64,000 bases of DNA, from NCBI RefSeq assembly GCF_900107995.1, contig NZ_FNUM01000001.1, positions 62,001 through 126,000 of the forward strand. Reading direction: 5' to 3'. Positions 33,603 to 36,344 of this stretch are shown piece after piece. Source of the stretch: Alcanivorax sp. DSM 26293. Lineage in GTDB: Bacteria > Pseudomonadota > Gammaproteobacteria > Pseudomonadales > Alcanivoracaceae. The number at the start of each line of letters is the position of its first letter. The first letter of the stretch is position 1. The position numbers were made by a program, and so were the translations under genes. The notes below the pieces were generated by a model. That model was given only the letters and a program-made list of their open reading frames with translations. It was not told the origin of the DNA and did no database searches.

Positions 33603-33983
33603 CCTGAGCAAAATAAGTCTTTACCCGTGCTGTTGTACGCCATTGCCTACAAAGTAGCCCCTGCCTGTAAGATAAATCTTACGTCAGGGGATGACCTGCG
33701 TGGCAACTGAGCCCGCGTTGCCCGACGGTCATAATATCTCCAATAATCAAACCTTTATAAAAGCTGGCTAATCGTCATTCGATCTTCAGGCCATAAAGAC
33801 AGTCAACGCGGCGTGATCGCAAAATCTGTTCATCCCTTCAAACTCTCCGCCTGTCGCGATCCCTTTGCCCTGTCCGCCGTGCCGAAACTAATAATAAGTG
33901 AGACATGGTTCACTAACTGAGAGTGCACCAATGGCTTAGTTACCACTGCGATGACCGGCCCCCCCGGACCCAGGAAGGCACAA
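33603..33983. other. Intergenic region before the GTPase-roadblock operon
   Basis: These 381 bases have no recognisable gene. They hold a palindrome at 33658-33690 and then sequence that should contain the promoter of the operon starting at 33984. The stretch is more AT-rich than its surroundings. No sigma-54 or other specific promoter could be assigned with confidence. Confidence 0.5.
33658..33690. promoter_or_regulatory. Palindrome upstream of the GTPase-roadblock operon
   Basis: Left arm 33658-33673 (CCCCTGCCTGTAAGAT) and right arm 33676-33690 (ATCTTACGTCAGGGG) pair almost fully around AA. It could be a terminator for the preceding gene without a T run, or an operator. Its function is not known. 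Confidence 0.45.
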
Positions 33984-34937
33984 ATGCGAACACAACGACT
34001 AGGATTTGTCGGATTAGAAGAAGACACGGTCAGTGCCTGCCTTTCGATGCTGAAAATCATCGACGGGCGCTCCTCGGTTCACTGGGATCAGAGCATCCCC
34101 GATGATGCGGATGTGTTGATGGTCGCGTGCGACAAGCAGGAACAGACCCGGCGCTCCGACCTGTCTGACAAACCCTGCATCGTGGTTTATCCGAACACCT
34201 ATGACAGGCCCGCCTCCACGTTTAGCTTGCCTCATCCATTTCGGGTCATGCAGCTGCTTGATGTGCTTGACGATGTGGTACGGACCTTGACCACGGACAC
34301 AACCCCGCGCCACACCAGCGCAACAGTGACGTCCACCACGCCGGATTCAACAACGGACTTCTGCGCGTCGTTGCATCATGTGATCAACGCCAAAGACGGA
34401 CAACGCAGCGAGCTATATTGCAGTCACAGCGATGAGGGCCTGTTGCTGGTAAAACCCGCAAGCCATCGTTTTTATGCCCGCCCCGCCCTTCTCCATGCAC
34501 TCAACGCCGGGACGGTGACCTTGTCACCACTGAGACCGTTCTCGGAGTCGGTTCCCGAAGGGATGGCTGCTCGCCCCCTGTTCGAGCTGGCCTGGATGAC
34601 GGGCGCCAAACACAGCGATGGCTTGCTCCCCTGGCTGGACCCGGACAGCCAGTTCCAGTTAAGCCGCTGGCCCAGTGCTGCTGCCCTCAACAAATCACGG
34701 CCCCTGCTTTCCCTGTGTGCATTGATGACCCGACGCGCGTTGGGCCGAGCGCAATTACAGATTTTGTCGAAATGCGATGAAGCCACCTTCAATCACTTCC
34801 TCAATGCCTGTGAAATTAGCGGGCTTCTGGTCAGTGAACGCCGTCGTTCAACGGCACAACCGACGGCTGTTGCGATGGAATCACAACGTTTTGGAGGCTT
34901 GATACGAGGCCTCAGAACTCGCCTGGGATTGAGCTGA
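33984..34937 (+). CDS. Uncharacterised protein, first gene of a GTPase-roadblock operon
   Basis: A 317-residue protein without an assigned family. Residues 1-101 (RLGFVGLEEDT, DADVLMVACD) look like a compact alpha/beta domain, perhaps a degenerate receiver. A Thr/Ser-rich linker spans about 102-125. The C-terminal half ends with a helical segment (about 250-300: GRAQLQILSKCDEATFNHFL) that resembles a winged helix like those in DUF742 or DUF4388 proteins. No signal peptide or membrane helix is seen. It starts after AGGAAGG and precedes the small GTPase by 4 bp. By position it may be an effector or regulator of the GTPase. The domain reading is an inference. Confidence 0.6.
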   Translation: MRTQRLGFVGLEEDTVSACLSMLKIIDGRSSVHWDQSIPDDADVLMVACDKQEQTRRSDLSDKPCIVVYPNTYDRPASTFSLPHPFRVMQLLDVLDDVVRTLTTDTTPRHTSATVTSTTPDSTTDFCASLHHVINAKDGQRSELYCSHSDEGLLLVKPASHRFYARPALLHALNAGTVTLSPLRPFSESVPEGMAARPLFELAWMTGAKHSDGLLPWLDPDSQFQLSRWPSAAALNKSRPLLSLCALMTRRALGRAQLQILSKCDEATFNHFLNACEISGLLVSERRRSTAQPTAVAMESQRFGGLIRGLRTRLGLS

Positions 34938-34941
34938 CAGC

Positions 34942-35493
34942 ATGACGCATGACGAATTCAAGATCCTCTTTACCGGGCCAATGGGCGCGGGAAAAACCAC
35001 TGCCATCGCCCAGTTAAGCGACGATGAATGCGTATCCACCGATGTGGTGAATACGGACCTGGAGCAATGCAACAAGGAAATGACCACGGCCGGACTGGAT
35101 TACGGCTATATCAGCCTGGCGGATGGTTTCGGGGTTCGGCTATACGGCACCCCGGGACAGGAGCGTTTCCGCTTCATGTGGCCCATTCTGGCCAGCAATG
35201 CGGCGGGCGTGATTCTGCTTCTGAACGGTGAGCACCCGGATCTTGAGAAACACCTGGCCATCTACGCCGACGCCTTTGCCAACAACGGCGAAACACCACT
35301 GGTGGTGGGAATTGGCCGGCTGGCGGCCAACGATTTCAGCTGTGTTGATCTGGTAACGGAAAGACTGGCGAACATGGGCCTCTTCGTTCCCGTGATTTCC
35401 GTCGATGTCAGGGAAAAAGAAGACGTATTGCTGCTGGTGGAGACCCTTCTCTGCCAGATCGAAGCTCACGAGATGGAATTAATGGAAGTATGA
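34942..35493 (+). CDS. Small Ras-like GTPase, MglA/CvnD-like
   Basis: A 183-residue P-loop GTPase of a bacterial small-GTPase group. G1 is GPMGAGKTT (residues 12-20), G3 is GTPGQERF (69-76) with the likely catalytic Gln73. The G4 site reads VVGIGRLAAND (121-131) and lacks the NKxD guanine-specificity motif, so nucleotide preference is uncertain. It resembles MglA of Myxococcus and the GTPase of Streptomyces conservons. It is translationally coupled to the roadblock gene that follows (ATGA overlap), as expected for a GTPase and its regulator. Confidence 0.85.
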   Translation: MTHDEFKILFTGPMGAGKTTAIAQLSDDECVSTDVVNTDLEQCNKEMTTAGLDYGYISLADGFGVRLYGTPGQERFRFMWPILASNAAGVILLLNGEHPDLEKHLAIYADAFANNGETPLVVGIGRLAANDFSCVDLVTERLANMGLFVPVISVDVREKEDVLLLVETLLCQIEAHEMELMEV

Positions 35494-35894
35494 CTAACAA
35501 GAACCCCCTGGGTCAGGCAGCGACAGAGATAGCGCAACAACAACTGCAGAAGTTGCGGGCAACCACCACCGGAATCACCTCCGCAGTGTTGTTGAGCAGC
35601 GACGGATTTGAAGTGACCTCTCTGGAAACGGACAAGGGCAAGGCCAGTCGACTTGCTGCCATGGGCAGCTCTCTGGCAGCGATCAGCTCTGCCATTGCCA
35701 AGGAAGCAGGCATCTCCGAATGTCGCCGTCTTATCGTGGAATCCGAGGAAGGTGTCGTGGCTGTCATGACAGTGCCGGACAGCTCTCCTCCTCTGGTATT
35801 GGCCGTTGTGGCCAATGATGCCTCCAGACTGGGGCAACTGCTCTGGGGCGCCAAACACTGCTGTGCAGCGTTATCAAAAAAGTTAAAAAAGTGA
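35490..35894 (+). CDS. Roadblock/LC7 domain protein 1
   Basis: A 134-residue protein with the roadblock/LC7 fold: ITSAVLLSSDGFEVTSL at the start of the fold, a central helix (KASRLAAMGSSLAAISSAI) and VVAVMTVPDSSPPLVLAVVA. Such proteins, including MglB, dimerise and act as GTPase-activating or exchange partners of small GTPases. Its start overlaps the GTPase stop codon. The C-terminal LSKKLKK tail is basic. A second roadblock protein is encoded 46 bp downstream. Confidence 0.82.
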   Translation: MTNKNPLGQAATEIAQQQLQKLRATTTGITSAVLLSSDGFEVTSLETDKGKASRLAAMGSSLAAISSAIAKEAGISECRRLIVESEEGVVAVMTVPDSSPPLVLAVVANDASRLGQLLWGAKHCCAALSKKLKK

Positions 35895-35940
35895 GTTAAC
35901 TCCCTGGAAAAAGGGAAAAAATATAAATTAGGAGTATGAA

Positions 35941-36300
35941 ATGGGCAACGTTAACGAAAGTTTGAAAACCCTGCTGCAGGCCGATGGCGCCATGTGCGCT
36001 GCTATTGTGGACGCCAACAGTGGCATGATGCTGGGCCATGAAGGCACAGGGCTCGATCTGGAACTGGCCGCCGCCGGCAATACCGAAGTGGTGCGCGCCA
36101 AAATGAAGACCATGAAATCCCTGGGTCTTAACGACGCGATTGAGGATATCCTCATTACGCTTGGCAGCCAGTATCACATCATTCGTCCGGTCGCGAAGAA
36201 TGAGGGGCTGTTCATGTACCTGGTGCTGGACAAAGCCAAATCCAACCTGGCCCTGGCGCGCCGCAACTGCCAGCAAGTAGAAACCTCGCTGACAGTCTAA
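35941..36300 (+). CDS. Roadblock/LC7 domain protein 2
   Basis: A 119-residue protein with a likely roadblock/LC7 fold: DGAMCAAIVDANSGMMLGHE, then a helix (LAAAGNTEVVRAKMKTMKSL), and SQYHIIRPVAKNEGLFMYLVLDK. It is only distantly like the first roadblock protein and may form a heterodimer or a separate homodimer. It starts after TTAGGAG. A hairpin terminator lies just past its stop, marking the end of the four-gene operon. Confidence 0.78.
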   Translation: MGNVNESLKTLLQADGAMCAAIVDANSGMMLGHEGTGLDLELAAAGNTEVVRAKMKTMKSLGLNDAIEDILITLGSQYHIIRPVAKNEGLFMYLVLDKAKSNLALARRNCQQVETSLTV

Positions 36301-36308
36301 CGCGGGCC

Positions 36309-36344
36309 CCTGGAGCGGTAGCCAATACCGCTCCAGGTTGTTAT
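36309..36344 (+). terminator. Terminator of the GTPase-roadblock operon
   Basis: A 12-bp perfect stem CCTGGAGCGGTA/TACCGCTCCAGG with a 5-base loop is followed by TTGTTATT. It starts 8 bp past the stop codon of the second roadblock gene. Confidence 0.82.

Follow-up and report, generated by a model that had tools for sequence, protein, structure and literature searches.

What kind of switch is encoded by a compact four-gene cluster that combines a Ras-like small GTPase, two different roadblock-type proteins and a first protein of no recognised family? The cluster lies in a window of 64,000 nucleotides (nt) of Alcanivorax sp. DSM 26293 (contig NZ_FNUM01000001.1, positions 62,001-126,000, forward strand), where it encodes, in this order and on the + strand, the proteins termed here P1, the GTPase, roadblock protein 1 and P4; feature coordinates below are those of the window unless another record is named. 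The genome is Alcanivorax-like, as the best match to P4 in a scan of genome contigs (genome_contigs) is found in Alcanivorax nanhaiticus, with 84% identity. According to a first-pass annotation, its recurrence in other gammaproteobacteria would mark a little-described signalling module. Judged by its gene set and its motifs, the operon is almost certainly a Group 3 MglA system, a kind of cluster already known since 2014, and the Group 3 sections of PMC4316618 include the receiver-like and winged-helix protein, so that it cannot count as undescribed. To this picture we add P4 as the most conserved, cross-phylum part of the cassette, a degenerate receiver in P1, the exchange of this sensor for a BLUF domain, and the LxRWP winged helix and C-terminal tail of P1.

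The GTPase and its assignment to Group 3

In PMC4316618 (Wuichet and Sogaard-Andersen 2014), the Group 3 sections describe a gene set of beta- and gammaproteobacteria that comprises an uncharacterised protein with a receiver-like N-domain and a winged-helix C-domain, the GTPase, and one or two adjacent MglB-type proteins. The same sections ascribe to the GTPase a GTPGQ motif in G3, a degenerate G4 without the NKxD lysine, a D-x-R type G5 and no arginine finger beside the G2 threonine. The operon has this gene set, its second MglB-type protein, P4, being MglB-like by fold only. P1 has a predicted receiver-like N-domain and a winged-helix C-domain, with Foldseek E values to receivers of only 0.03-0.17.

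The GTPase gene (34942..35493, +) was analysed by Pfam and NCBIfam searches, a 16-row alignment and a tree. Its Pfam matches are weak, with ATP_bind_1 above the cut-off and Roc and Ras below theirs, and the protein carries a P-loop (GPMGAGKT), GTPGQ and D-x-R motifs. All the Group 3 features from G2 to G5 are present: the G2 region, KEMTTAG, has no arginine finger beside the threonine, GTPGQ occupies residues 69-73 in G3, the G4 region VVGIGRLAAND lacks the NKxD lysine, and VDVR occupies residues 154-157 in G5. The residues that are invariant in the 16-row alignment include G12, G15, G17, K18, K45, T48, T49, G69, P71, G72, P150, D155 and R157.

In a tree of 65 GTPase rows, the nine CvnD proteins of Streptomyces formed a clade of their own on a long branch (support 100/100), without the GTPase of the window. 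The latter grouped with Stenotrophomonas, named as a Group 3 genus in PMC4316618, at a fork with support of only 81/93. The other GTPase encoded in this genome fell on the opposite side, with CvnD. Because the tree is unrooted, contains no rows from Groups 1, 4 or 5 and has weak deep forks, it does not settle Group 3 membership by itself.

Two roadblock-fold proteins

Roadblock protein 1 (35490..35894, +; 134 amino acids) is recognised by the Pfam profile Robl_LC7 (E 9.6e-10) and matches Rv3364c (1.2e-5) and a Roadblock/LC7 protein (1.9e-5) among PDB sequences; it is MglB-like and a candidate GTPase-activating protein (GAP). P4 (35941..36300, +; 119 amino acids) has no Pfam match. Since Robl_LC7 does not recognise it, we refer to P4 as a roadblock-fold protein and not as a member of that family. 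When 16 P4 rows were compared with Pfam, two matched LAMTOR5 (best E 2.8e-4) and one matched Robl_LC7 (E 0.001). A PHROGs search gave no match at E 0.1, and NCBIfam gave none above its curated cut-off.

The roadblock fold of P4 is confidently modelled. The AlphaFold2 model, built from a 28-row alignment, has a predicted local distance difference test (pLDDT) score of 91.6 and the element order helix-strand-strand-helix-strand-strand-strand-helix of the roadblock fold. With this model, Foldseek retrieved 102 PDB chains at E <=0.001, the top match being a Streptomyces roadblock protein (8.5e-7). The comparison with MglB in the MglA complex 3t12 gave template modelling (TM) scores of 0.81-0.83 by query length, and of 0.72-0.83 over the MglB chains listed; Ragulator p14 is also among the matches, and MglC gave a TM score of 0.61. 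The proposal of a GTPase and two different roadblock proteins in one operon is therefore borne out, by the Robl_LC7 match of the one and the predicted fold of the other. An apparent profile link of 99.3% between P4 and roadblock protein 1 was rejected, as the alignment contained two P4 rows; without them, the value fell to 5.5%. Because this clean profile comparison finds no link, the kinship of the two proteins rests on predicted structure.

By sequence comparison, P4 is better conserved than any other part of the cassette, above all in helix 2, in strand 5 and in strands 3 and 4. Between the window and a second copy in the same genome, P4 is 57% identical over residues 11-114, versus 34% for the GTPase. 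Matches to P4 occur in 28 plasmid records, and the 20 that are listed are 51-71% identical, with hosts that include Comamonas, Deinococcus, Streptomyces, Nocardia, Acinetobacter and Methylomagnum; Hymenobacter appears in the counts only. Nine of these plasmid regions were opened, and in eight of them P4 is annotated, always as 'hypothetical protein'. P4 is thus a sequence family that extends across phyla and is barely recognised by Pfam and not by NCBIfam.

Distribution of the cassette and of P4

The conservation of the cassette was studied in a sample of relatives that contains 57 genomes, 56 of them in addition to that of the window. These 57 include 24 genomes in which the GTPase was detected and 19 with P4, and the four-gene order of the window is found in 15 of the 56 other genomes, namely in 14 of 16 congeners and in one genome of another genus. 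In a wider sample of 321 gammaproteobacterial genomes, the GTPase profile matched 59 at E <=1e-12 and the P4 profile 26 at E <=1e-3. Half of these P4 matches are strong (13 with E <1e-30) and 13 are weak; the six weak ones that were aligned are longer, diverged P4-like proteins.

Among genome contigs, the best 80 of at least 546 P4 loci were analysed, a set that leans to close relatives. At least 3 kb of sequence upstream of P4 is available for 69 of them, the other 11 being cut by contig ends. The order P1-GTPase-roadblock-P4 is present in 39 of the 69, and 18 more are variants with a GTPase, which brings the GTPase-containing loci to 57. The variants comprise ten loci with a second P4-like gene, four without a recognised P1, two with an extra P1 match, one with an extra GTPase-like match and one in which P4 comes first. 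The arrangement thus recurs, in betaproteobacteria as well as in other gammaproteobacteria, and neither of the two findings that would have spoken against the module was made, as P4 has a predicted roadblock fold and the gene order beside the GTPase is conserved.

In the remaining 12 of the 69 loci, no GTPase lies within 3.2 kb of P4, and four opened plasmid records (L056, L057, L059 and L062) likewise have P4 without a GTPase nearby, which indicates that P4 is not always part of a GTPase switch. L128, L133 and L143 are among the GTPase-less loci of the contig set. The neighbours of lone P4 genes proved uninformative, as they are common only to small groups of related loci: a response-regulator-like and a PAS-type protein, for example, recur in at most 7 of 20 loci, largely from relatives of Comamonas (names assigned by eye). 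On a plasmid of Streptomyces sp. NBC_01243 (L058, 4233-6375), a P4-like gene, a gene for a protein with a weak DUF4388/helix-turn-helix match, a roadblock gene and P4 stand in a row, and no GTPase is annotated in the stretch.

Other records show the genes in further settings. In Acinetobacter wuhouensis, plasmid p1_010062 (L033/L061), typed as conjugative, carries GTPase, roadblock, P1 and P4 genes, split by the start of the record. A record of N. gonorrhoeae that is filed as a plasmid (L032, 4995-5530) holds a GTPase homologue in two overlapping reading frames. Two contigs labelled Microbacteriaceae (L199 and L201) encode the GTPase and a P4 that is 62-64% identical to that of the window, by transfer or contamination.

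P1, a modular protein with a conserved tail

P1 (33984..34937, +; 317 amino acids) is matched neither by Pfam at E 1 nor by NCBIfam. In its AlphaFold2 model, from a 57-row alignment (pLDDT 87.9), a low-confidence linker joins an alpha/beta domain (residues 1-105) to a middle domain (126-226); the winged helix follows (about 228-285), and a second low-confidence linker leads to a terminal helix (304-313, pLDDT about 62). The alpha/beta N-domain, linker and possible winged helix proposed in the first-pass annotation are thus all seen in the model.

Foldseek with the whole model yielded no match at E <0.001. The top match was a lysine decarboxylase (0.013), and flavodoxins and receivers followed with E values of 0.016-0.17, the receivers having target TM scores of 0.57-0.59. 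For the N-terminal domain (33984..34298, +), the sites of the receiver pocket were set by sequence and strand order, at the end of strand 3 and at the beta-5 'KP' position, without superposition. At the putative phospho-acceptor site, the protein of the window has alanine (A48), and aspartate is found in 14 of 57 aligned P1 rows; at the putative beta-5 lysine site it has histidine (H84), and lysine is found in 8 of 57. At the sites assigned in this way, P1 of the window therefore has neither of the two residues of a canonical receiver, the phospho-acceptor aspartate and the beta-5 lysine. From sequence and model together, we read the domain as a degenerate receiver.

The protein that occupies the P1 position is regularly encoded beside the GTPase. 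In a redundant set of 170 GTPase matches, 152 have directly upstream, on the same strand, an open reading frame (ORF) of at least 130 amino acids. These correspond to 146 distinct proteins, of which 143 match P1 profiles, 129 of them at E <1e-5. After removal of 35 truncated or near-identical sequences, 108 of the 143 were kept. The tryptophan of the LxRWP motif, W229, is invariant in all 108 rows; in the window, this motif (LSRWP) and the winged helix span residues 226-285 (34659..34838, +).

A BLUF domain is present in six of the 108 proteins (best E 8.8e-27), and a home-built BLUF profile also found six, one of them weakly (3e-10). The GTPases of the six BLUF-bearing systems form one clade (100/100), which suggests that within this sample the sensor was exchanged once. 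On plasmid pSU2 of Agarilytica rhodophyticola (L055, 5001-7072), the order is P4, a P1 with a BLUF domain, GTPase and roadblock; this cassette is possibly a natural light-controlled Ras-like switch.

The C-terminal tail of P1 (residues 302-317, RFGGLIRGLRTRLGLS; 34887..34934, +) is basic and amphipathic and follows the consensus G-[LF]-[LFI]-x-R-[LI]-R-x-R-L-G-L. Within the last 25 residues, the most amphipathic 11-mer carries a net positive charge in 107 of 108 P1-position proteins. A 13-column tail motif gave P1 a median of 21 bits and a 5th percentile of 12; it was trained, by a sampler that leaves one row out and with no separate test set, on 102 of these tails themselves. Among the controls, the 95th percentile was 4.8 in roadblock proteins, -0.8 in P4 and -2.6 in GTPases, and 1730 further mechanical ORFs, many of which are not genes, reached -0.7. 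The helical moment of the motif is 0.51 versus 0.31 for shuffles (standard deviation 0.015), and none of 500 shuffles was as high. An earlier test of amphipathicity on whole 25-residue tails was weak, with 24% of 108 at p<0.05. By a lipid-binding formula and its threshold, 107 of 108 tails were classed as membrane-active, a result towards which charge alone pushes. The tail presumably resembles the membrane-targeting helices of MinD and FtsA.

Boundaries of the operon and a second copy in the genome

For P1, the start at 33984 is favoured over an alternative ATG at 33951, because the resulting N-terminus (MRTQRLGF-like) is common to close homologues. P1 and the GTPase are separated by 4 nt, the GTPase and roadblock genes overlap by 4 nt, and 46 nt separate the roadblock gene from P4; the description as tightly packed holds for the first two junctions and fails for the third. 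Downstream of P4, a terminator-like hairpin of 12 pairs with a T-rich tail (36309..36337, +) supports the predicted terminator at the end of the operon: the 52-nt stretch is more stable than 200 of 200 shuffles (z -4.6), although a terminator consensus scan of the region found three sites against a shuffle mean of 2.7, which is no excess. The nearest flanking genes encode a CDGSH/glutamate-synthase-like (Glu_synthase/CDGSH) protein upstream and a 4HBT thioesterase downstream. Among the other ORFs between 29000 and 41500, inspected by eye and not searched one by one, no gene for a kinase, a pilus or a chemosensory system was seen.

A second, diverged cassette lies on another contig of the same genome (C13; L002/L250, 6087-8690), where P4, P1 and GTPase genes occupy one strand and a roadblock-like gene is convergent.

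Proposed mechanism and output

On the observed gene order, motif conservation, sensor exchange and co-occurrence with pilM, and on the modelled folds, we consider it fairly probable that the operon acts as an MglA-like Group 3 switch, with P1 as input, two roadblock-fold regulators and a surface or pilus output. The GTPase would cycle between its GTP and GDP forms, with the MglB-like roadblock protein 1 as the likely core of the GAP. P4 may complete or tune the regulatory platform, either by forming homodimers or by pairing with roadblock protein 1 in a heterodimer. A precedent is found in Myxococcus, where MglB and RomY constitute a bipartite GAP and the RomY partner is needed for full GAP activity, according to the account of RomY in PMC9481161. 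P1 would be the input adapter, with an exchangeable N-terminal sensor that appears as a degenerate receiver here and as a BLUF domain in another lineage, and its winged-helix module would couple the sensor to the GTPase complex. The tail, being basic and amphipathic, probably serves either to keep P1 at the membrane or to dock the protein on the GTPase; for P1 as a membrane-tethered adapter, we see the chances as even.

As the most likely output, surface or type IV pilus behaviour is put forward tentatively, at slightly below even chances. With counts read off lists and genomes treated as independent, uncorrected for ancestry or genome size, pilM is present in 55 of 59 GTPase-positive versus 177 of 262 other gammaproteobacterial genomes (odds ratio 6.6, p 2e-5), and the FliM control shows a weaker association (38 of 59 versus 119 of 262, odds ratio 2.2, p 0.009). 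The genome of Alcanivorax sp. DSM 26293 has pilM and no FliM match. Snodgrassella also carries a Group 3 mglA, and there an orphan allele of mglB was accompanied by soft-agar flares and better host colonisation, as reported in the part of PMC11112851 on this allele.

Several observations weigh against the proposed switch. FliM is associated with the GTPase as well, the association counts carry the simplifications just given, and no pilus or motility gene was seen adjoining the operon. The whole P1 model has no Foldseek match below 0.001, its best being to a lysine decarboxylase, the profiles of P4 and roadblock protein 1 show no link, and P4 occurs without a GTPase at the 12 contig loci and in the four plasmid records described above. 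The GAP role, the pairing of the roadblock proteins, the membrane contact, the signal flow and the output are inferred.

Alternative readings of P1 and of the operon

The layout of P1, a receiver-like domain followed by a winged helix, would also suit a response-regulator-like protein that binds DNA and in which the GTPase and the roadblock proteins control the winged helix, and regulation of transcription by Group 3 systems is suggested in the Group 3 part of PMC4316618. A few of the 108 P1 members have weak Pfam matches to DprA_WH, IclR, TrmB and MarR, and the P1 winged helix has a profile similarity of 95% to MarR. However, the recognition-helix region is mildly acidic on average over 57 P1 proteins (net charge -1.2, against +0.3 for MarR, a weak comparison with n=9 only), a basic amphipathic tail is unexpected for a plain soluble regulator, and the phosphorylation pocket is degenerate. 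The acidic region and the tail argue somewhat against a transcriptional switch, which we regard as improbable. The DUF742 component of conservons offers another identity for the winged helix, and the first-pass annotation had suggested that P1 plays the role of the DUF742 or kinase component. The operon would then be a gammaproteobacterial conservon that has lost its kinase, with P1 as the homologue of CvnC, which the section on CvnC in PMC13343842 proposes as a guanine nucleotide exchange factor (GEF). A GTPase, a roadblock protein and a winged-helix-like protein are indeed common to both systems, and the second GTPase of the genome lies on the CvnD side of the weak fork (81/93) in the unrooted tree. 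A profile match between DUF742 and the winged helix of P1 (hhalign 92.6-93%) was rejected as unspecific, with the controls MarR and IclR at 95% and 89%, and the tails differ, since nine DUF742 tails scored from -11.6 to 1.5 (median -6.6) with the P1 motif and gave no match. P1 has no Pfam match to DUF742, no histidine kinase of the CvnA type is found among the ORFs of the operon or in its two flanking genes, and the nine CvnD proteins keep to their own long-branched clade. A role of P1 as DUF742 protein is thus not specifically supported, that of a kinase has no support, and descent from a conservon is very unlikely.

A variant of the Group 3 switch, compatible with it, concerns the tail. Instead of anchoring P1 at the membrane, it could bind the GTPase as a GEF-like helix, which would make P1 the exchange component. 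The consensus of the tail is fairly specific, the operon holds no other GEF candidate, and the C-terminal helix of MglB1 in Myxococcus stimulates exchange according to the MglB1 results in PMC11016934; on the other hand, strong positive charge and amphipathicity fit lipid binding too, and we consider the variant rather unlikely. A bacterial counterpart of Ragulator seems a little less likely still: P1 would be a membrane-tethered scaffold that carries a plug-in sensor, and on it roadblock protein 1 and P4 would pair as a heterodimer to recruit and gate a single small GTPase. If this were true, the BLUF plug-in of one lineage would make a natural light-controlled Ras-like switch.

What the Group 3 reading adds concerns switches that were sorted by sequence in 2014 and for which we found one experimental paper on the beta- and gammaproteobacterial systems in the open-access literature (PMC11112851). 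Testable roles can now be given to their two unnamed parts, to P4 as a roadblock-fold family and to P1 as a modular input whose C-terminal tail is conserved, and the BLUF cassettes supply a known stimulus, blue light, that makes signal flow through a bacterial Ras-like switch directly testable. Among open-access papers, the BLUF variant, the P1 tail and the cross-phylum P4 family were not found in print; a word search of the main text of PMC4316618 finds neither 'BLUF' nor 'amphipathic', and its sections on Group 3 name no conserved tail of the uncharacterised protein.

Comparison with known systems

The closest counterparts are the Group 3 MglA systems as presented in PMC4316618, with which the operon shares the receiver-like/winged-helix protein, the GTPase, one or two MglB-type proteins, the beta- and gammaproteobacterial setting, and the GTPGQ G3, degenerate G4 and D-x-R G5; it differs in that its second roadblock-fold protein lies below Pfam detection and that the P4 family also occurs in other phyla. 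The mgl locus of Snodgrassella resembles it in that a Group 3 GTPase comes with several roadblock proteins, two of them coupled and one an orphan, as described for that locus in PMC11112851. In Myxococcus, a GTPase is likewise regulated by a roadblock protein, and a second factor joins MglB for full GAP activity. However, the Myxococcus MglA is assigned to Group 1, with an intrinsic arginine finger, in the classification of PMC4316618, and RomY is a protein of 188 amino acids whose conserved N-terminal region matches no domain model in the description given in PMC9481161. The Streptomyces conservons (CvnA-D, DUF742) share a GTPase with D-x-R type G5, a roadblock protein and a winged-helix-like protein, whereas the histidine kinase CvnA is absent here and P1 is larger, has a receiver-like or BLUF domain for input and ends in a different tail. 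In Ragulator-Rag (LAMTOR), roadblock-fold proteins also serve a small GTPase, and P4 resembles p14, although this resemblance is at the level of the fold only.

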